A stretch of DNA of 64,000 nt from Candidatus Ruminimicrobiellum bubulum. Lineage in GTDB: Bacteria; Elusimicrobiota; Endomicrobiia; Endomicrobiales; Endomicrobiaceae. The notes under the pieces are model-generated. The model was not told the DNA's origin, did not search any database, and saw only the letters and a program-made list of their open reading frames with translations. The stretch is from NCBI GenBank assembly GCA_017651625.1, contig JAGCCP010000018.1, positions 1 to 64,000 of the forward strand, read 5' to 3'. Below, piece after piece: positions 8,626 to 50,100 of this stretch. The translations under genes were made by a program, and so were the position numbers. How positions within the stretch are numbered: position 1 is the stretch's first letter; each line of letters starts with the position of its first letter.

Positions 8626-11600
8626 ATGAAACTGAAAAAATTGGCAGTAAAAATGTTTTCAATACTATTGGCGGTAATTTTGTTAAATACACAGTTTGTT
8701 TTTGCGGCAAGATATCAGGATGTTACAGAAGATCTTACGGTAGCCCCCTATAATATTTATTCGGGTTTTACGGAATCTGCTGAGGTTGGAGGAAGTGGTG
8801 GTGTATTTTTAGTAAGTCATACTGTTACATTAACCATAATGGATCATGTATCTTTTTCGAGCAATGCGGCAAGACTTTTCGGCGGAGCAATAAATACAAA
8901 TAACGAAGATTCAAAGGTGAATATAGGCTCAAATGCATCTTTCGATAATAATAAAGCAATTTACGGTGGGGCAATAAATATTCAGAAAGGAACAGTGACA
9001 ATAGGAGACGCAGCAGTATTCAAAAATAATAAAACTGAAAAAATGTTTGAGGGTGATGTTGCTGCAAGTGGTGGTGGAGCAATACACAATAAAGATAATT
9101 TAACTATAGGAAACGAAGCTTCTTTTGAGAAAAATGTTGCATATGGAAATGGTGGTGCAATATGTAATGACCAATTAGGTAAACTTACTATAGGAAGTGG
9201 TGCATATTTTAATAAAAACGAATCAACGAATGGAAGTGGTGGAGCAATATACAATTATGGAACAGTTAATATCAGTAGTGATGCATATATACGTTTTGGT
9301 TACAATGTAGCAAAATATTCGGGTGGCGCAATATATAATCTGGGAAATTTTAGTGTAACAGGTTGCTCACAGTTTCAATATAATTCTTCGGAAAGTAATG
9401 GTGGTACTATATACAATTCCCATAAATTTGAACTGGGACAAGATGGAGCAGTACCTGGATCAGCACCTATTATTGTTCATAGTTCTTCAACAAAAAATGG
9501 TGGTGCTATTTGTAATTACACTATCTTTGGAAAGTTAAAAATAGGGGATGGTGTTAAGTTGAGCCAAAATTATGCGGGAGAGCAAGGTGGTGGAATATAC
9601 AATCAAAGTGGAACTGTTAGTATCGGCAATGATATGGAATTTGAAAGAAATTCTGCAAATGGAAGTGGTGGTGCGATATACAATGAAAGAGGAACATTTA
9701 CAATAGGCAACAATATCAAATTTGCGGAAAACGGTTCAAATGATTGTGGCGGAGCAATATATAATTGTAGAGAAGATGATAAAGATGCACAGCTTAATAT
9801 CGGTAACGATGTAATGTTTTCAAAAAATCATTCACAGAGCAGTGGTGGCGCGATATATAATGATGATAATCTAACCATAGGTGACAGAGCCGTGTTTTAT
9901 CAAAATTATGTATCCCAAGCAAATGGTGGTGCGATATACAATGATTTCACAGGAAAACTTAAGATAGGAAACGATGCACTTTTTACAAACAATTCAGCTT
10001 ATAATTCTGGTGGAGCGATTTATGAGTATGGAGGATCTTTTATCATAGGAGACAATGCACAATTTATAGAAAATTTCGCAGAGGAAAAAGGTGGAGCGAT
10101 TTATACTCAACATGAGGCAGGAAAGCTTACTATAGGAAACAATGCACAATTTACGAAAAATTCTACATCGCACTATGGCGGGGTTATATATAATAATAAA
10201 GAAAGGATCGTTATAGGAGACAATGCACAATTTACAGAAAATTTTGCAGAGGAAAAAGGTGGAGTGATATATTCTGATAATTATGGAACTATTAGCATAG
10301 GAAACGATGCGCAGTTTATAGAAAATTCCGCAACCGATCATGGTGGAGTTATATATGGTTCTATGGGAACTGTTAATATAGGAAATAATGCAAAATTTAT
10401 AGAAAATTATACGTATGAGCTCGGAGGAGTTGTTTACGTTAATACAGGAGGAACTGTTAACATAGGAGACAATGCAGAATTTTCGCAGAATTTTGCAGAT
10501 GATTATGGTGGAGTAATATATTTAGACGGTTTCGGCTCTTTCGGAGTTGTTAATATAGGAAACAATGCTAAATTTGCAAACAATAGTGTAGATGATTATA
10601 GTGGTGGAGCAATTAATATTAATGGTGGAATTTTTAATATAGGAAACAATGCGGAGTTTGTAGAAAATTCCGCAAGAGAAATGGGTGGTGCTATAAATAA
10701 AAGTTCCGGAACAGTTACTATAGGAAATAATGCTTATTTCAAAAATAATAGCTCAGATAATTATGGCGGAGCTATAGCCAATGAAAAAGGAAAAGTTTAC
10801 ATAGGAGATAATGCACAATTTACAAACAATTCAACCGAAGATGATGGTGGTGCGATAATGAATGATACTTTAGGAACAGTTACAATAGGTTCCAATGCGA
10901 ACTTTACCGGCAACATGTCAAACTTTGGCGGAGCAATCGAGAATCGCGGAATAATGACATTTGAGGATGGTGTGGTATTTAGAGACAATACTGCAGAAAT
11001 TGGCTGTGGTGGAGCAATTTATAATTCCGGAACATTGAATTTAGTAGCGAATACAAAAAATGTAGAATTTACTGGAAATACGAGTGGAGGAGATCCGATT
11101 GCAATAGATAATCAAAAATCAACCATGAATTTGTGGGCAAGCGAAAAAGTTAGGTTTATTTTTAATGATAGGATAACATCAGACGATAGTTTAAGCACAT
11201 TGAATATCAATCAGTCATCCGGTACACTTCCTACAAATGGAACAATAGAATTAAATGCGGATATGAGCAGGTATGTCGGAGAAGTTTATTTTTATGGTGG
11301 AACGATAGAGTTAGGTAAAAACGGAACATTGTTTGGTGTTGATAATGGTATAAAATACATTGATGTGGATAATGCAACAATAAAAATGGCAAACGGTAAA
11401 GTAGCAAATGCAGAATTTGGTATAGATGGTAGTGTAAATATAAGAAAAGAATTAAATTTAACAGTAGATGCTGATTTGGAAAATAAAAAAATGGATATGG
11501 CTTTGTTCCCCGGATCGAATATAGGTCCCGGGAAATTAAATGTAAAAGAAATAAATATAATAAAAGATTCTGATAAAACAACAAGAGTGGATTTTGCATC

Positions 11601-12693
11601 AACAGGATCTGATAATAATGTGATAAGTGTAAATAAAGCAAGGTCTGTTAGATATAGTTACGATGCAAAATTAGAGTATGGTAAAATTACGGCTTTTATT
11701 GGTAGTATTCCTGTTCCGAATATTGACGGTTATTATTACACTTTCACAAAGAACGGATTTAACCCCGTAACGGCATCAGGAGCAATTTCGGCAACAGCAG
11801 GTGGAGCAGCAACACAATCTTTGGTTGCAAACCAAGTTTTTGCAAATATGAACGGTAAGACATCAAATAGTAAAAAAGCAAGTATAAATCCTTCGAATTT
11901 GTATGTTTCCGCAGGTGACCAGGTATTTGATAATAGCGGAAAAGTAGAAAGAGGATTATGGTTAAAACCATTTATGGCACAAGAAACGGTAAAAATCGGT
12001 GATGCAGATGTAGACAACAATTTGTACGGAACACTTGCCGGAATAGATTTTCCGCTAGGACAAGATAAACAAGTATCATTTTATTTAGGATATGCCGGAA
12101 GTGAACAGACGATAGAAGAAGTAAAATCGAATCAAACGGGATATGTATTAGGTGCAACCGGAATGTTGATAAAAGAAAAGTGGTATTTGGGAGCAACGGC
12201 AAATATGATATTCAATAAAGCGTCTATAGATAGTGATGACGGAACAAATGATATAGATATGAATATGTTTGGTATTGCAGCCAAAGCAGGATACAATTAC
12301 GATATGGGCAAAAAATGGATATTGGAACCGAATGTAACATTGATGTATGGAATAGTAAATTGCGGAAGTTATGAAACAACATTAACAAAAGTGGATAGCC
12401 AAAGCATAAGTAATATATCTGTAGAACCGCAAGTAAAAGCGAAATTTGAAATAGGAAACGGATGGCAACCATACGGTTTATTGGGATATTCAGCAAACTT
12501 GAGTTCACAACCTACAGTTAAAACGGAAGCAGGAGATTTAGACCTTGATAGTGTAGATGGATATGTAGAATACGGAGCAGGAGTGAATAAAGATTTTATA
12601 GATACAGCGTGGAGTTGTTATGCACAGGTAACCGGAAGAAGCGGCGGAAGGAATGGGTTTGCAGGAAACCTTGGGGTTAAATACAAATTTTAA
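8626..12693 (+). CDS. Pmp-like autotransporter with FxxN/GGAI repeats
   Basis: A 1355-residue predicted type V-secreted surface protein. It has a Sec signal peptide (cleavage near FAA, about residue 28); a passenger with about 26 GGA(I/V)-type motifs alternating with FxxN motifs and IG(N/D)NAxF strands, the motif pair that defines chlamydial Pmp adhesins and predicts a right-handed beta-helix; a linker; then an autotransporter beta-barrel over roughly the last 250 residues (from ERGLWLKPF) ending in Phe (VKYKF). Its barrel is clearly paralogous to those of the three proteins at 41901-58092, but its passenger lacks their NLWA/IDNITVST modules except for one NLWA copy. It has its own terminator-like hairpin downstream. 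The surface role (adhesion or interaction) is inferred. Confidence 0.88.
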   Translation: MKLKKLAVKMFSILLAVILLNTQFVFAARYQDVTEDLTVAPYNIYSGFTESAEVGGSGGVFLVSHTVTLTIMDHVSFSSNAARLFGGAINTNNEDSKVNIGSNASFDNNKAIYGGAINIQKGTVTIGDAAVFKNNKTEKMFEGDVAASGGGAIHNKDNLTIGNEASFEKNVAYGNGGAICNDQLGKLTIGSGAYFNKNESTNGSGGAIYNYGTVNISSDAYIRFGYNVAKYSGGAIYNLGNFSVTGCSQFQYNSSESNGGTIYNSHKFELGQDGAVPGSAPIIVHSSSTKNGGAICNYTIFGKLKIGDGVKLSQNYAGEQGGGIYNQSGTVSIGNDMEFERNSANGSGGAIYNERGTFTIGNNIKFAENGSNDCGGAIYNCREDDKDAQLNIGNDVMFSKNHSQSSGGAIYNDDNLTIGDRAVFYQNYVSQANGGAIYNDFTGKLKIGNDALFTNNSAYNSGGAIYEYGGSFIIGDNAQFIENFAEEKGGAIYTQHEAGKLTIGNNAQFTKNSTSHYGGVIYNNKERIVIGDNAQFTENFAEEKGGVIYSDNYGTISIGNDAQFIENSATDHGGVIYGSMGTVNIGNNAKFIENYTYELGGVVYVNTGGTVNIGDNAEFSQNFADDYGGVIYLDGFGSFGVVNIGNNAKFANNSVDDYSGGAININGGIFNIGNNAEFVENSAREMGGAINKSSGTVTIGNNAYFKNNSSDNYGGAIANEKGKVYIGDNAQFTNNSTEDDGGAIMNDTLGTVTIGSNANFTGNMSNFGGAIENRGIMTFEDGVVFRDNTAEIGCGGAIYNSGTLNLVANTKNVEFTGNTSGGDPIAIDNQKSTMNLWASEKVRFIFNDRITSDDSLSTLNINQSSGTLPTNGTIELNADMSRYVGEVYFYGGTIELGKNGTLFGVDNGIKYIDVDNATIKMANGKVANAEFGIDGSVNIRKELNLTVDADLENKKMDMALFPGSNIGPGKLNVKEINIIKDSDKTTRVDFASTGSDNNVISVNKARSVRYSYDAKLEYGKITAFIGSIPVPNIDGYYYTFTKNGFNPVTASGAISATAGGAATQSLVANQVFANMNGKTSNSKKASINPSNLYVSAGDQVFDNSGKVERGLWLKPFMAQETVKIGDADVDNNLYGTLAGIDFPLGQDKQVSFYLGYAGSEQTIEEVKSNQTGYVLGATGMLIKEKWYLGATANMIFNKASIDSDDGTNDIDMNMFGIAAKAGYNYDMGKKWILEPNVTLMYGIVNCGSYETTLTKVDSQSISNISVEPQVKAKFEIGNGWQPYGLLGYSANLSSQPTVKTEAGDLDLDSVDGYVEYGAGVNKDFIDTAWSCYAQVTGRSGGRNGFAGNLGVKYKF

Positions 12694-12977: not shown

Positions 12978-13916
12978 ATGTCAAAAAAAAGAATAGGTGT
13001 TATTGGCGGTGCTACTGAAAAACATTCTGTTTATATGAAACAATTATTGGAATCCATGGGAGTGGATGTTCTTTTAATAGATACATTAAATTTTCCTGAA
13101 CATGTAGATTTTTCTTTTGGAGATAAACTTAAGTATCAAAACGAAGAGATAGAGGATATAAGAAGTTTTTATGTAAGAACCGTATTTTATAATGAACCGC
13201 CATATTATTTAGAAGAAGTTAAAGAAGGGAAACCGATAGATTTAGATGGATGGTATTCTAATTATACTGCAGAAAGAGAAAGACAAGCTTTTTTAGGATC
13301 ATGGATAAGAACTTTAGCACTTGAGGGAAGAACTGTAGTAAACAATATTTCAACTTTTCAGCTACACTATTTAAAGCCGTATCAAATTGCAATTTTAAGA
13401 AAACAGGGAATAGTTTTACCTAAAACGTTGGTAACAAATAGCAAAGAGGAGTTGTTGAAATTCAGAAACGAAGTAAAAGAGGTTGTTTATAAAGCCGTAG
13501 CAGGTGGTACAGCTTGCAGAAAAATGACTGATGAAGATTGGAAAGATGAAAGATTGGATAAACTAAAATATGCTCCGGTAATTTTTCAAGATTATATAGA
13601 TGGCGACAACATTAGAGTTTATGTTTTAAATCATAAAATTATTTCTTGTAACGTAATCAATACGGATGAGGTTGATTACAGAGGTTATGAAAAATCCGTT
13701 GAACATGTTAATATTCCGGAAGATGTTCAGAACATGTGTATAAAAGCTGCTGATATTTGCGGGTATACATTTACGGGAATTGATATAAAAAGAACTACCG
13801 ATAACAGATATGTGCTAATTGAATGTAACCCTTCGGCAATGTTCTTGGGAGTAGATTATAGAACAGGAGATAACATTGCAGGGCAACTTGCCGAATATCT
13901 TATAAAAAATGGATAA
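12978..13916 (+). CDS. ATP-grasp peptide ligase of the MvdC/MvdD (graspetide) type
   Basis: A 312-residue ATP-grasp protein, predicted to join Thr/Ser or Lys side chains to Glu/Asp carboxylates of a RiPP precursor. The sequence runs like MvdD-family enzymes: N-terminal pre-ATP-grasp domain, a conserved lysine in VVYKAVAGG (Lys172), FQDYIDGDNIRVYV (203-216), VDYRGY (233-238) where family members have DWR, GIDIK (267-271), and the Mg-binding end VLIECNPSAMF (279-289; Glu282, Asn284). RimK or glutathione synthetase are alternatives, but the neighbouring TTxxxxEE precursor strongly favours graspetide synthesis. The ATG at 12978 has a good SD (TTTGGAGGAAG); the in-frame TTG upstream overlaps that SD. 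It overlaps the next gene by 8 bases. A TATAAT at 12946-12951 may be the operon -10. Confidence 0.88.
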   Translation: MSKKRIGVIGGATEKHSVYMKQLLESMGVDVLLIDTLNFPEHVDFSFGDKLKYQNEEIEDIRSFYVRTVFYNEPPYYLEEVKEGKPIDLDGWYSNYTAERERQAFLGSWIRTLALEGRTVVNNISTFQLHYLKPYQIAILRKQGIVLPKTLVTNSKEELLKFRNEVKEVVYKAVAGGTACRKMTDEDWKDERLDKLKYAPVIFQDYIDGDNIRVYVLNHKIISCNVINTDEVDYRGYEKSVEHVNIPEDVQNMCIKAADICGYTFTGIDIKRTTDNRYVLIECNPSAMFLGVDYRTGDNIAGQLAEYLIKNG

Positions 13917-14847
13917 TAAAAGAAGAATTTTAACCAGTCCGTATAAAAATGCTTTTGTTTTTGAGTATGGTAACCTCGACGATAATACTATTTGGATATT
14001 GCCGCCAAGTCAAAAAGTTTTTAATATAGATCAGTTCACATTGAAAGTTATACTCGATATGAATAACGGCACAAAAGTTGACGTAATTTCAAAAAAGTAT
14101 GATTTACCGATGGAAGAAATACAATCTATATTAAATAAACTTTCCTTTGAAAGTGCTATAACCGAACAAAATTGCGGTAGAATTATGATGTCTCAGAATA
14201 ATGATACTGTTGATTTGGCTCCTCTTTTAACTTTGTCTGTTGTTATGCTTTTCATACAAATAGAGTATTTTAGAAATGTGGCTCATACTTTCATCATGAA
14301 TTCTTTCGCAGATTCAATGATTGTTGCTATTATAGCAATAGCTGTTGTTTTCTTTCATGAATTAGGTCACTATTTGGCATGCATAAAACATTTTAAACCC
14401 AGGTTCGGTTTTATGTTTGTGTCAATATTTCCGACAATATATGTAAACACAAATTTGTCTTGGACGTTAAGTAAAAGTATCAGAATATTTATAAACCTTT
14501 CCGGTGCTTTTGCGGATTTAATTGTTAACACTGTTTTGGTTTTTATGGTTGTGTTATTTCCGAAAGTAGAATATTTTATAACACCTTTACTTATGTTACA
14601 ATATTCAAGATTATTAATAGTTTTGAATCCTTTGTTGCCCGGAGATGGATATTGGATATTGTCGGATGTGTTAAACAAAGTTAATTTGAAACAAAAATCT
14701 TTAAGAGAACTGTTATCGTTTAGATTTAATTTTATGTCTTTTTTCGGTTTAGTTTCTTTTATAATGATGGTAGTACCTATGATTTTCTTTGGAATATATA
14801 TTTTTAATTTAATATATAGTTTTATTCAAAAATTAGGACTTTTATAA
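13909..14847 (+). CDS. PqqD-like domain fused to M50-type intramembrane metalloprotease
   Basis: A 312-residue membrane protein. Residues about 25-90 resemble a PqqD/RiPP-recognition winged helix (WILPPSQKVFNIDQFTLKVILDM, then a second helical pair). Residues 103-310 have four to six hydrophobic segments, with HELGH at 150-154 in a membrane segment and NPLLPGDGYWILSD at 240-253 supplying the third ligand (Asp246). This HExxH plus NPxxPxDGYxxLSD arrangement is that of the peptide zinc metalloproteases found in peptide-export and RiPP clusters. The simplest reading is that the N-terminal domain binds the precursor leader and the M50 core cleaves it at the membrane. It is translationally coupled to the ATP-grasp gene (8-base overlap). 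Confidence 0.8.
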   Translation: MDNKRRILTSPYKNAFVFEYGNLDDNTIWILPPSQKVFNIDQFTLKVILDMNNGTKVDVISKKYDLPMEEIQSILNKLSFESAITEQNCGRIMMSQNNDTVDLAPLLTLSVVMLFIQIEYFRNVAHTFIMNSFADSMIVAIIAIAVVFFHELGHYLACIKHFKPRFGFMFVSIFPTIYVNTNLSWTLSKSIRIFINLSGAFADLIVNTVLVFMVVLFPKVEYFITPLLMLQYSRLLIVLNPLLPGDGYWILSDVLNKVNLKQKSLRELLSFRFNFMSFFGLVSFIMMVVPMIFFGIYIFNLIYSFIQKLGLL

Positions 14848-14859
14848 TCGGAGGTAACA

Positions 14860-15627
14860 ATGTATATTTACATGTATATCGGTATTTTTGTTTTTTTTAT
14901 TTGCATATTGCTTTTTTCATCTGTTAGAGTTTTTAAGGAGTATGAACGAGGAGTATTATTCAGATTAGGCAGACTGAAAAAAACAAAAGGACCGGGACTT
15001 GTTTTTATAATCCCGATAATAGATAAAATAGTAAGGGTTGATTTAAGACTTGTATCTATAGATGTTGCAAGGCAAGAAATTATGACCTTGGATAATGTTC
15101 CGGCAACAATAGATGCGATCGTATATTTTAAGATAATAAATCCGGATAATGCAATAACGGTTATACACAACTATTATCAAAGTACTTTTCTTATTGCGCA
15201 AACTTCGCTTAGAAGTGTTATCGGACAGGTAGATTTGGATACATTGTTATCAAAAAGAGAAAATATTAATGAAGCTCTTCAAGGCGTTATTGCCAAACAA
15301 ACAATGCCTTGGGGAATAGAAGTTCCTATGGTAGAAATCAGAGAAGTTTCTTTGCCGGAAGAAATGAAGAGAGCAATGGCAAGGCAAGCCGAAGCGGAAA
15401 GAGAAAGAAGAGCTATGTTGATAGATGCAGAAGGTGAATTTCAAGCTGCAACAAGGTTGGTTGATGCAGCTAATATAATGCAGCAAAATCCGATAACTTT
15501 GCAGTTGAAATACTTACAAACTTTGACGAAAATTTCTTCGGAAGGAAAAACGATAGTATTTCCGTTTCCTATAGAGTTTATAAAGGATTTTATAAGTAAA
15601 TTAAACAAGCCAAACGAAAAGAAATAA
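14860..15627 (+). CDS. SPFH/Band 7 protein (stomatin/slipin type)
   Basis: A 255-residue slipin: N-terminal membrane hairpin/anchor (about 3-25), SPFH domain starting EYERGVLFRLGRL, then an Ala/Glu/Arg-rich coiled coil (RAMARQAEAERERRAMLIDAEGEF... region, about 170-195) and a short tail. Such proteins form membrane-associated oligomeric scaffolds, usually paired with NfeD or FtsH-type proteases. Here no NfeD is present; instead it sits 12 bases after the M50 gene with a GGAGG SD. It may organise the protease or the maturation complex at the membrane; that role is inferred from position only. Confidence 0.85.
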   Translation: MYIYMYIGIFVFFICILLFSSVRVFKEYERGVLFRLGRLKKTKGPGLVFIIPIIDKIVRVDLRLVSIDVARQEIMTLDNVPATIDAIVYFKIINPDNAITVIHNYYQSTFLIAQTSLRSVIGQVDLDTLLSKRENINEALQGVIAKQTMPWGIEVPMVEIREVSLPEEMKRAMARQAEAERERRAMLIDAEGEFQAATRLVDAANIMQQNPITLQLKYLQTLTKISSEGKTIVFPFPIEFIKDFISKLNKPNEKK

Positions 15628-15728
15628 TATTTTTTACAAAAATTTTACAAAAACTTACGGATTTTTTTTCAATAACCGATTATAATTGTTTTGTATTCTA
15701 TTTAATATAAGTAGTAGTAGGAGGAAAG

Positions 15729-17702
15729 ATGAAAACAAAAAAGTTGTTTATCGTGGAATTAGAAGAAAGAAAAAGCACCTCAGAATTATTTATTAAAACT
15801 CCGGCATATAGCAATTCTCAATTAAAACAAGGAAAAGGCGGCAGTCCGAAAGATAATTTTGTTACTGATGAAGAAAAAGAGGCCGGATTGATGAAATCAA
15901 CATCCGATGTAACAACAAAATCGGTTGGTGAAGAAGGCTCAACAACAAAGAATGAAGCCGGTACAGATGTAACAACGAAGTCAATCGGTGAGGAAGGCGC
16001 TACTACGAAGAACGAAGATGGTGCAGATGTAACAACAAAATCAATTGGTGAAGAAGGGGCCACCACAAAGAATGAAGATGGTGCCGATGTAACAACGAGA
16101 TCAATCGGGGAAGAAGGCGCTACTACAAAGAACGAAGACGGTGCTGATGTAACAACACTGGCACTCGGTGAAGAAGGTTCCACAACAAAGGATGAGGGTG
16201 GATCTGATATAACAACATTGGCAATGGGAGAAGAGGGTTCTACAACAAAAGATGAGGGTGGAGCAGATTTAACAACATTGGCAATGGGAGAGGAAGGTTC
16301 TACAACCAAGGATGAAGGCGGAACAGATGTAACAACCAGAGCAATTGGCGAGGAAGGAGCCACAACGAAAAACGAAGGTGGAGCCGATGTGACAACCAAT
16401 GCAATCGGAGAAGAAGGAGCAACGACAAAGAATGAAGGTGGAACAGATGTAACAACTAAATCAATTGGTGAGGAAGGAGCTACCACAAAGAACGAAGGTG
16501 GGGCAGATGTTACAACCAACGCAATCGGAGAAGAAGGAGCAACGACAAAGAATGAAGGCGGAACAGATATAACAACAAGATCAATTGGAGAAGAAGGAGC
16601 CACCACAAAGAACGAAGGTGGAGCCGATGTAACAACAAAATCAATTGGTGAGGAAGGAGCCACAACGAAAAATGAAGGTGGAGCTGATGTAACAACAAAA
16701 TCAATCGGAGAAGAGGGAGCCACCACAAAGAACGAAGGTGGAACCGATGTAACAACAAAATCAATTGGCGAGGAAGGAGCCACAACGAAAAATGAAGGTG
16801 GTTATGATGTAACAACAAAATCAATCGGTGAAGAGGGAGCAACGACAAAGAATGAAGGTGGAGCAGACGTAACGACGAAATCAATCGGTGAGGAAGGCGC
16901 TACCACAAAGAACGAAGGCGGTTACGATGTAACAACAAAAGCAATCGGAGAAGAAGGAGCCACTACAAAATCAGAAGGCGGAGCAGATGTAACGACTAAA
17001 TCAATTGGCGAGGAAGGAGCTACCACAAAATCAGAAGGCGGAGCTGACGTAACAACAAAAGCAATCGGAGAAGAAGGAGCTACCACAAAATCAGAAGGTG
17101 GAGCCGATGTAACAACAAAAGCAATCGGAGAAGAAGGAGCCACCACAAAATCAGAAGGCGGAGCTGATGTAACAACAAAAGCAATCGGAGAAGAAGGCGC
17201 TACAACTAAAAATGAAGGTGGTTTTGATTCAGTAACGACAATGGCATTAGGAGAAGAAGGAGCTACCACAAAATCAGAAGGCGGAGCTGACGTAACAACG
17301 AAAGCAATCGGGGAAGAAGGAGCTACCACAAAATCAGAAGGCGGATCCGACGTAACAACAAAAGCAATCGGAGAAGAAGGAGCTACCACAAAATCAGAAG
17401 GTGGAGCAGATGTAACAACGATGGCCATCGGAGAAGAAGGCGCCACAACTAAAAATGAAGGTGGTTTTGATTCAGTAACGACAATGGCATTAGGGGAAGA
17501 AGGCGCTACCACGAAATCAGAAGGTGGAGCTGATTCGGTAACAACAATGGCATTAGGAGAAGAAGGAGCTACAACTAAATCAGAAGGCGGTGCCGACACA
17601 ACGACAAAATCAATCGGAGAAGAGGGAACAATAACGAAGAATGAAGGTGGTTCCGATGTAACAACTAAGGCATTAGGTGAAGAAGGAAGTTTAATAAAAT
17701 AA
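15729..17702 (+). CDS. Giant multi-core graspetide precursor with 30 TTxxxxEE repeats
   Basis: A 657-residue protein: a 60-residue leader without signal peptide (start MKTKKLFIVELEE), then 29 full repeats of 20 residues (three have 21) plus a 14-residue last copy. Consensus: VTTKSIGEEGATTKNEGGAD. TT-x4-EE-G is present in all 30 copies; the second TTK is present in 28. TTxxxxEE is the known core motif of plesiocin-type (group 2) graspetides, in which an ATP-grasp enzyme makes Thr-Glu side-chain esters. No Cys, Trp or His occurs in the array. A near-perfect SD (AGGAGG, 15719-15724) and a 101-base gap with a TATAAT (15681-15686) suggest strong and perhaps separate expression. The alternative, a structural repeat protein, is possible but does not explain the neighbours. 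Confidence 0.87.
   Translation: MKTKKLFIVELEERKSTSELFIKTPAYSNSQLKQGKGGSPKDNFVTDEEKEAGLMKSTSDVTTKSVGEEGSTTKNEAGTDVTTKSIGEEGATTKNEDGADVTTKSIGEEGATTKNEDGADVTTRSIGEEGATTKNEDGADVTTLALGEEGSTTKDEGGSDITTLAMGEEGSTTKDEGGADLTTLAMGEEGSTTKDEGGTDVTTRAIGEEGATTKNEGGADVTTNAIGEEGATTKNEGGTDVTTKSIGEEGATTKNEGGADVTTNAIGEEGATTKNEGGTDITTRSIGEEGATTKNEGGADVTTKSIGEEGATTKNEGGADVTTKSIGEEGATTKNEGGTDVTTKSIGEEGATTKNEGGYDVTTKSIGEEGATTKNEGGADVTTKSIGEEGATTKNEGGYDVTTKAIGEEGATTKSEGGADVTTKSIGEEGATTKSEGGADVTTKAIGEEGATTKSEGGADVTTKAIGEEGATTKSEGGADVTTKAIGEEGATTKNEGGFDSVTTMALGEEGATTKSEGGADVTTKAIGEEGATTKSEGGSDVTTKAIGEEGATTKSEGGADVTTMAIGEEGATTKNEGGFDSVTTMALGEEGATTKSEGGADSVTTMALGEEGATTKSEGGADTTTKSIGEEGTITKNEGGSDVTTKALGEEGSLIK
15909..17699 (+). 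repeat. 60-bp coding tandem repeat array (30 units) in the precursor gene
   Basis: Units of 60 bp (63 bp in units 22, 26 and 27, which add a Ser codon). Codons for the invariant TT and EE residues vary freely (ACA/ACG/ACT/ACC, GAA/GAG), so conservation is at protein level. Sub-types cluster: KNEDG units 2-4, TTLA(L/M)GEEGSTTKDEGG units 5-7, KNEGG units 8-17, KSEGG units mostly 18-28, consistent with growth by local duplication. Confidence 0.95.
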
Positions 17703-47165: not shown

Positions 47166-50100
47166 ATGATTAACATCAAAGATTTAAAAATTACTTTATT
47201 GTCGGTATTAGCAGTAACTTTACTTGGTACAACATCTGTTTTTGCAACACAACATTATCAAATAACGACAAGCAGTTCAATTGTAGATGAAAATTATTCC
47301 GATTATTCGCAGAGTGGATCCGGAGAAACTGCTTACGGAGGAGTTTTTTATATTGGTAATAACGGAGATTTAACTTTAGAAAATGTAGGTTTTTACAATG
47401 ATTATTCAACAAGAGGCGGTGCTGTTTATATTTATAATAGTAGTGGAAGTTTAAATTTAACCGATATAATTTTCGATAGTAATTCTGCCACTAATGGCGG
47501 TGCAATATATAACCAAGGTGGAACAGTAACAATAAGCAAAAATGGACTTTTTAACGAAAATACATCATCTGCCTCCGGAGGAGCAATCTATAATACAGGT
47601 AATACAAGTCAATTATATATAAGTTCAAATATAGCTTTTTTCGGAAATAAAGCATCTACATCCGGAGGAGCAGTTTATAATTATAATAATGGTCAAGTGT
47701 ATATAAGTTCGAATATAGTTTTTTCCGAAAACACAGCTAAAAATGGAGGAGCAATTTATAATACGAGTGGTAAAGTATATATAAGTTCGAATGTAGCTTT
47801 TTCCAGTAATACATCATCCAGCTATGGAGGAGCGATTTATAATAATGGTCAAGCATATATAAGTTCTGGAGTAGCTTTTTTCAGTAATACATCATCCGGC
47901 TATGGAGGAGCAGTTTATAATAGTAGTCAAGTATATATAAGTTCAAATATATCTTTTTCCGAAAACAAATCATCTAGCTACGGTGGAGCAATCTATAATA
48001 CGAGTGGTCAAGTATATATAAGTTCGAGTGTAGATTTTTCCAGTAATACATCATCCAACTATGGAGGAGCGATTTATAATTATAATAACGGTCAAGTATA
48101 TATAAGTTCAAATGTAACTTTTTCCGAAAACAAATCATCCAGCTACGGTGGAGCAATCTATAATACAGGTAGTACGAGTAAAATAGATATAAGTTCGGAT
48201 GTAACTTTTTCCGAAAATACAGCTAAGTATGGAGGAGCAATTTATAACACGAGCGGTCAAGTATATATAAGTTCGAATATAGCTTTTTCAGGAAATACGG
48301 CATCTTCATATGGCGGAGCGATTTATAATTATAATAATAGTCAAGTGTATATAAGTTCGAATGTAGTTTTTTCAGGAAATAAAGCAATAAATTCTGGACA
48401 AGGCGGTGCTATTTATAATTTGGGAACAATGAGAATAGATAATGTGATTTTCAGTAGTAATTCAGCTACTTATGGCGGTGCTATTTATAATGCAAAAACT
48501 TCAACTATAACAAACACAACTTTTAGTGATAACAGTGCATCATATGGAGGAGCTTTATACGGAAGTCAAATAACGTTAGGTGAAGGAGTTGTTTTTACCG
48601 GGAACAGAACCACAAGTTCTGGGGGTGGAGCAATTTACAGTACAGGTTCCTTATATGTAAGTTCTGGTACAATATTTACGGAAAATCAAGCTGTTAATTC
48701 AAATGCCGGGAATGGAGGAGCTATATACAGTAGTGGAAAAGTGGAAATGGGTGATGGGGTAATATTTAGTTCCAATTCCGCAAAAGGTTCAAATTCAAAC
48801 ACAGGATTTGGCGGAGCGATTTATATGAGTAATAATAGTAATAATGTAACAATAGGAGATAATGCAGTATTTGATTCTAATTATGCATACTCAAGAGGCG
48901 GAGCCGTTTATGTTTATAGTAGGGGAACTTTAAATATTGGAGATAATGCAACTTTTTCCAATAACAGTTCCAGTGCCGGTGGAGTATTGTATAGTGGTGG
49001 AGAAACGACAATCGGTGCAAATGCAATTTTTTCTTCGAATACAGGCTCTTCTACAGGCGGAGCAATTTATGTTAATACAGGTGGTGTAACTATAAAAGAA
49101 AATGCGACATTTGAGTCTAATAGTACAACAAACAGCGGTGGAGCAATTTACAACGGAACCAGCTTAACTATAGAGAACGGAGCAAAGTTTATTTCAAATA
49201 CTGCAAGTGCCATATATTACTATTCGGCAGGAGGTGGTGCGATACAGAATAGCGGGACATTAAATTTAATTGCAAATACATATAACGTAGAATTTACAGG
49301 TAACAAAGCTAAAGGAATATCCAATGCAATAAATAATAGTGGTACAGCTAACTTATGGGCAAGTGATACTGCTGATATAATTTTTAACGATAGAATAACC
49401 GGAACCGGAAGCGGAACAATTAACATAAATAGTTCAACGGATACATTAACGGCAAATGGTAGAATAATATTGAACGAAGATATGAGCGGATTTACCGGAA
49501 CTACCAATATATATGGCGGTGAAGTTGAGTTTAAATCAAAGAAGGGAAATAATTCCAAAATTAATACATACAAATTTGTTAAGGGAACAGTAAATCTATC
49601 GAGCGGAACATTAAATATAATGAACAATGCAATAGATAATATAGCTCTGACAACGTTTACAGTGACACAGGCAAATTTAAAGTTTGATGCCGATTTAAGT
49701 AACAACACAAGTGATAACTTCACAATAACCAATACCATAACAGAAGGCGAATTGAATTTAACGGGAATAAATCTTTTAGGATGCAAAAACGATGTGGAAA
49801 CGGGAACTATAACATTGTTTAAAAATAGTAACTCTCCTACTTTAAATGTATTAACAACAGCAAGTTGCGGAGGTAACATATATACCTTTACGACAGGTGC
49901 TACTTCTGGAACACTAAACTATATAATTTCCGGATATAAACCGTTTAAAGAATATGTGAATGATACGGAAACTGAAATAAGATCATATTCTTTTGGTACG
50001 AGCGGAGAAAATGTAAGCGAAGGTTTGGGAGATTTGGGCGGAACGCAATTTACAATATTTGGTAACGGGTATAATTTAGTGGCAAATTCCGTAACCGGAA

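Follow-up and report, generated by a model that had tools for sequence, protein, structure and literature searches.

A putative plesiocin-type graspetide locus with a 30-core giant precursor and M50 and SPFH partner genes in Candidatus Ruminimicrobiellum bubulum

Described graspetide systems and the layout of the locus

The closest described system is plesiocin (PsnA2/PsnB), a group 2 graspetide in which a single ATP-grasp enzyme acts on a precursor with an N-terminal leader and tandem TTxxxxEE cores. Co-expression of PsnA2 and PsnB leads to two lactones per core repeat (PMC9484694), and plesiocin inhibits serine proteases, the more strongly the more of its motifs are cyclised (PMC13097080). 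Microviridins and chryseoviridin (MdnB/MdnC, CdnC) are also products of ATP-grasp side-chain cross-linking, and some of their precursors are multi-core, such as AMdnA with three cores; AMdnC is distributive on several cores (PMC5934393). Membrane proteases of the M50 family occur in other RiPP clusters. Daptide clusters encode a site-2 protease with a fused RRE (PMC10036551), and EpeP, an epipeptide M50 protease, is believed to combine cleavage with export (PMC10885120).

Analysis of a 64,000-nucleotide stretch of contig JAGCCP010000018.1 (hereafter the window) led to four co-directional genes on the + strand between 12978 and 17702. The first (12978–13916, 312 aa) encodes an ATP-grasp protein, predicted to be a PsnB-like Thr-Glu ester-forming macrocyclase. 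It overlaps by 8 bases with the second (13909–14847, 312 aa), encoding a predicted intramembrane M50 (site-2-type) metalloprotease with an N-terminal domain possibly of the PqqD/RRE type. After a gap of 12 bases follows the gene of an SPFH/Band 7 protein whose N-terminal segment is hydrophobic (14860–15627, 255 aa). These three genes are closely packed, while the giant precursor, a repeat protein of 657 aa (~65.3 kDa), is encoded after a longer gap of 101 bases at 15729–17702. A clear GGAGG-type ribosome site is found upstream of the ATP-grasp, SPFH and repeat genes. Directly upstream of the four-gene locus, at 8626–12693, lies a large autotransporter gene with Chlamydia-Pmp repeats, and another array, made of ~80-base repeats of similar character, is located at 47608–48420 of the window. 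A dedicated C39 exporter was sought genome-wide, giving two weak matches elsewhere and none inside the four-gene locus. In the same genome, a 7805-residue open frame has a weak C39 peptidase match around 1056–1160 of contig G000:C37 (L042).

The locus shares with plesiocin the nearest solved ligase, the tandem TTxxxxEE motif, the N-terminal leader and the single ATP-grasp enzyme. It differs from it as follows: the tetravalent plesiocin carries a GDPSAG linker (PMC12291112), whereas the window precursor has 30 cores and a conserved TTKxExGxD linker, and group 2 graspetides often come with NHLM-type transporters (PMC13097080), in place of which the window locus has M50 and SPFH genes. Since both the ligase group and the tandem cores after a leader are those of plesiocin, the locus is very probably a variant of the plesiocin-type graspetides and not a separate class, set apart by how many cores it has, by its partner genes and by its linker. 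The initial annotation had proposed a new graspetide system. What holds of this is a plesiocin-type locus whose giant precursor carries many cores and whose gene set we found nowhere described in the papers searched; a new class is not supported, as the enzyme group, the leader-plus-core logic and the core motif are all those of the plesiocin group.

The ATP-grasp ligase and its relatives

The best PDB sequence match of the ATP-grasp protein is PsnB (7drm; E-value = 8.7e-51, 33% identity), followed by CdnC (E-value = 8.5e-8) and RimK (E-value = 5e-7). The conserved ATP-grasp site motifs YKxVAGG, RVYV, DExDxR, TGxDIK and ExNxSAMF align with PsnB. The predicted model of the window ligase (pLDDT 80) places 7drm first in a fold search against the PDB (E-value = 7.7e-30), ahead by about ten orders of magnitude, with RimK at 6e-16. 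Phylogenetic analysis, in which the rows of PsnB, MdnB, MdnC, CdnC and AMdnB come from printed PDB alignments and are partly incomplete, placed the window ligase in a clade of eight (support 97/97) with PsnB near but outside it and MdnB/MdnC/CdnC as a group apart. On sequence grounds, the ligase belongs to the PsnB group and is neither of the RimK nor of the microviridin type.

The enzyme had been called MvdD-like, a label that is replaced here by PsnB-like: it scores 63 bits against MvdD (cut-off 475) and 69 bits against MvdC (cut-off 425). An MvdC/MvdD ligase pair was rejected on these scores, far under the cut-offs, and on the presence of one ligase in the locus. Additionally, the PFFARFL leader and the TxKxPSD core of microviridins are absent from the window precursor. 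The same annotation had asked whether the ATP-grasp gene groups with RimK/glutathione-type ligases, and such a grouping is absent by sequence, tree and fold. The strongest Pfam name is indeed RimK (1.1e-14), which would fit an ordinary low-complexity repeat protein standing beside an unrelated ligase of the RimK type, whose role would be to attach glutamate or some other group. That reading is contradicted by the PsnB match, the tree and the fold, by the occurrence of the same leader and core beside the same enzyme in other phyla and by selection on the TT..EE residues (see below), and we consider it very improbable. A RimK glutamate ligase proper was ruled out by the rimK_fam score (80.7 bits, cut-off 143.4) together with the sequence and fold comparisons given above.

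Three relatives of the ligase were taken from genome contigs. Genome search found more, in 3 of 384 genomes of Omnitrophota (the phylum of G100) and in 14 of 392 of the phylum of G102, looser PsnB relatives included, while in its own phylum the window genome stands alone among 341. Within the clade, the window ligase groups with the Omnitrophota sequences (95/87). Rarity in the own phylum and this grouping suggest a horizontal transfer. No relative of the ligase turned up when viral contigs were searched.

The M50 protease and its SPFH partner

The second gene had been described as a PqqD-M50 fusion. Its M50 part is confirmed by the motifs HELGH and NPLLPGDGYW; in a four-member alignment, H150, E151, H154 and GDGYW are invariant and correspond to the HExxH and distal Asp motifs of site-2 proteases. 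The PqqD part found no confirmation from family models, as those of PqqD gave no match with the protein, and is left with a low-confidence topology: the N-terminal part of the model shows a beta3-alpha3 order at a pLDDT of about 33–75. An N-terminal RRE domain is plausible from this model. The profile searches and models were built on four-sequence alignments, and Foldseek with the M50 model gave no significant fold match (best E-value = 0.43). The nearest NCBIfam models are daptide_HExxH (1.1e-14, 54.4 bits, cut-off 300) and RiPP_HExxH_LiaK (2.7e-13, 50.2 bits, cut-off 225). The protein resembles the daptide and epipeptide proteases (YydH/LiaK, EpeP), which are also membrane proteases of RiPP clusters, but scores far under their curated cut-offs and has an ATP-grasp ligase and an SPFH protein as its partners.

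SPFH proteins frequently act as scaffolds of membrane proteases. The presence of such a gene in the locus, as initially annotated, is borne out by the Pfam Band_7 match (1e-38), and it is one of three SPFH genes in the genome. The protein matches the HflK model at 3e-19, under the HflK cut-off. It has the Band 7 domain in common with HflK/HflC and stomatin-type scaffolds, but its gene adjoins that of an M50 protease and not of FtsH or NfeD.

Synteny study showed M50 and then SPFH directly after the ATP-grasp gene in six of the eight clade members, across three phyla. The SPFH protein of L003 is short and diverged, the M50 gene of L025 starts near the contig end and L028 has neither gene. That the M50 and SPFH genes accompany this clade of ligases supports their participation in the pathway. 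A pairing of the same kind is found in haloarchaea: on the Halocatena salina plasmid NZ_CP096022.1 (L048:4995-6799), the end of a PsnB-like ATP-grasp gene overlaps a gene of the same M50 family, annotated as hypothetical; the downstream protein examined there has no TTxxxxEE array. On a Halorussus salilacus plasmid (L049:3937-7334), two adjoining ATP-grasp-like proteins are encoded near an M50 family gene on the opposite strand, and in this ligase neighbourhood no precursor of the window type was seen. Separately, a radical SAM-SPASM-like gene (L004:2-1036) is located directly upstream of an Omnitrophota ATP-grasp/M50/SPFH set, on a contig where no precursor was seen.

Concerning the literature, M50 and SPFH are missing from the published table of the families found most frequently in association with graspetide ATP-grasps (PMC8939145), and neither is mentioned in the text of PMC13097080. 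A full-text search for SPFH joined with RiPP terms returned nothing relevant. In the papers searched, no description of an M50 or SPFH partner for graspetides was found.

The precursor, its cores and the predicted product

The precursor begins with the leader motif KKLFIVELEERKSTSELF (within residues 1–21; 15729–15791, + strand), common to L003, L025, L027 and L028. The cores follow at 15912–17687 (+ strand, residues 62 to 653) as TTxxxxEEG in units of 20–21 residues joined by the linker TTKxExGxD. The 30 tandem TTxxxxEE motifs in 657 residues that had been annotated were counted exactly, with starts from residue 62 to 645, and TRF detected a 60-base period array at 15906–17687 with 29.5 copies. 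Shuffling the precursor residues 5000 times gave a mean of 0.52 and a maximum of 5 such motifs. All 29 units tested differ from one another in DNA, with a mean identity of 77%. The repeat number hangs on the assembly, and the synonymous divergence speaks against collapse. The leader, the entire precursor and consensus cores were each compared with the PDB, which returned nothing meaningful.

Codon comparison over the same 29 units separates constrained from free positions. The T, T, E and E codons of the core change only synonymously (pS 0.56, pN 0) and the core Gly has a pN of 0, while loop positions 3–5 reach a pN of 0.29. The TT..EE residues are under complete purifying selection, so that the residues needed for plesiocin chemistry are held while the loop varies. 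Chance repeats were rejected by the shuffle counts and by this selection. Loop position 3 is the most variable of the core (entropy 1.75 bits here and 2.53 bits in relatives), and the first loop residue in the window cores is K, R, L, M or N.

Unexpectedly, the linker is constrained as well. TTKxE shows a pN of 0.008 and the G and D a pN of 0, with pS of 0.6–0.7, against a pN of 0.27 at other linker positions. As this constraint equals that of the core residues, the motif TTKxExGxD may be functional too. Each unit could then carry two cross-linkable sites, the linker joining by esters and/or a Lys amide for about 90–120 links per chain, with nucleophiles before acids as in known graspetides (PMC7823629). 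The relatives speak against it, their linkers being mostly Pro- or Gly-rich and without the motif, which was also found in no graspetide in the literature searched; spacing, solubility or a protease site could also account for the conservation. We regard a second site as possible, but doubtful.

The related loci provide the context for the core number, which had been set against known precursors with a few cores. That range was understated. A leader KKLFIEELEQRKSTSxLF with TTxAxGEEG cores is found next to PsnB-like enzymes both in Omnitrophota and in a third phylum, and the leader motif is kept across six precursors (that of the window, L003, L025, L027, L028 and, diverged, L029). The complete relatives have 4 (L003), 4 (L025), 13 (L027) and 20 (L028, counting S/T variants) cores, and the incomplete precursors L026 and L039 at least 8 and at least 9, respectively. 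The 30 cores of the window are the extreme of this natural series. The sharing of leader and core with precursors that neighbour such enzymes in two further phyla supports the graspetide reading. Apart from these precursors, TTxxxxEE cores were observed joined to proteins whose N-terminal segment is Tat-like or Sec-like (L034:2477-3595 and L033:8687-9280), both adjoining PsnB-like ATP-grasps without M50/SPFH; in the L034 protein, two core blocks flank a middle segment that looks folded.

Taken with the sequence evidence, PsnB-like ester formation in the TTxxxxEE cores is probable. The conserved leader would be bound by the ATP-grasp enzyme, which would activate the two Glu of each core with ATP and link them to the two Thr by nested esters. 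Up to 30 bicyclic hairpins would result, that is 60 esters with a loss of 60 waters (about -1081 Da). Because Thr, Lys, Glu and Asp are conserved in the linker as well, the connectivity may differ from that of plesiocin. The leader would be cut off at the membrane by the M50 protease, organised by the SPFH scaffold, and the protease would perhaps help the release of the chain outside. We infer ester formation and leader removal from the relatives, consider the M50/SPFH step somewhat likelier to occur than not and offer the export route as a guess.

By analogy with plesiocin, the product could be a multivalent serine-protease inhibitor with a specificity given by the variable first loop residue, a role for which we see the chances as evenly poised, a 30-core inhibitor being unusually large. 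Its main rival keeps the same chemistry but gives the product a structural or surface role, as a polymer whose stapled hairpins form a stiff chain that is kept at the cell surface or matrix and does not diffuse. The 65 kDa and the 30 near-regular 20-residue units would suit such a chain, as would esterification, which would cancel 60 of the 134 acidic side chains and bring the net charge (from residue counts) from -72 to about -12, and the placement of cores on both sides of the folded-looking segment of L034. On the other hand, relatives with 4–13 cores share leader and motif, so the cores are not bound to great length, and the first loop residue varies widely in the manner of a binding site, where a fibre would keep it fixed. 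We therefore hold the polymer to be unlikely and the inhibitor to be the preferred role.

A broader proposal, rather improbable as a whole, would see here a distinct plesiocin-type branch over several phyla, with the ATP-grasp/M50 pair also in haloarchaea, in which an SPFH-held site-2 protease matures very long multi-core chains; in the window, a second TTKxExGxD cross-link site would turn the mature product into a polymer of 65 kDa in which the side-chain links number from 60 to more than 100. If the plesiocin-type reading is true, the product would greatly exceed tetravalent plesiocin and three-core AMdnA in length, and the locus would offer a direct test of one ATP-grasp enzyme modifying dozens of cores per chain. 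It would also connect RiPP maturation with an intramembrane protease and an SPFH scaffold, a combination not found in the literature searched. The conserved leader and cores, together with the ATP-grasp, M50 and SPFH genes, provide a handle for genome mining, and the natural series from 4 to 30 cores, with its variable loop residue, would be a library for the effects of multivalency and loop on protease inhibition.
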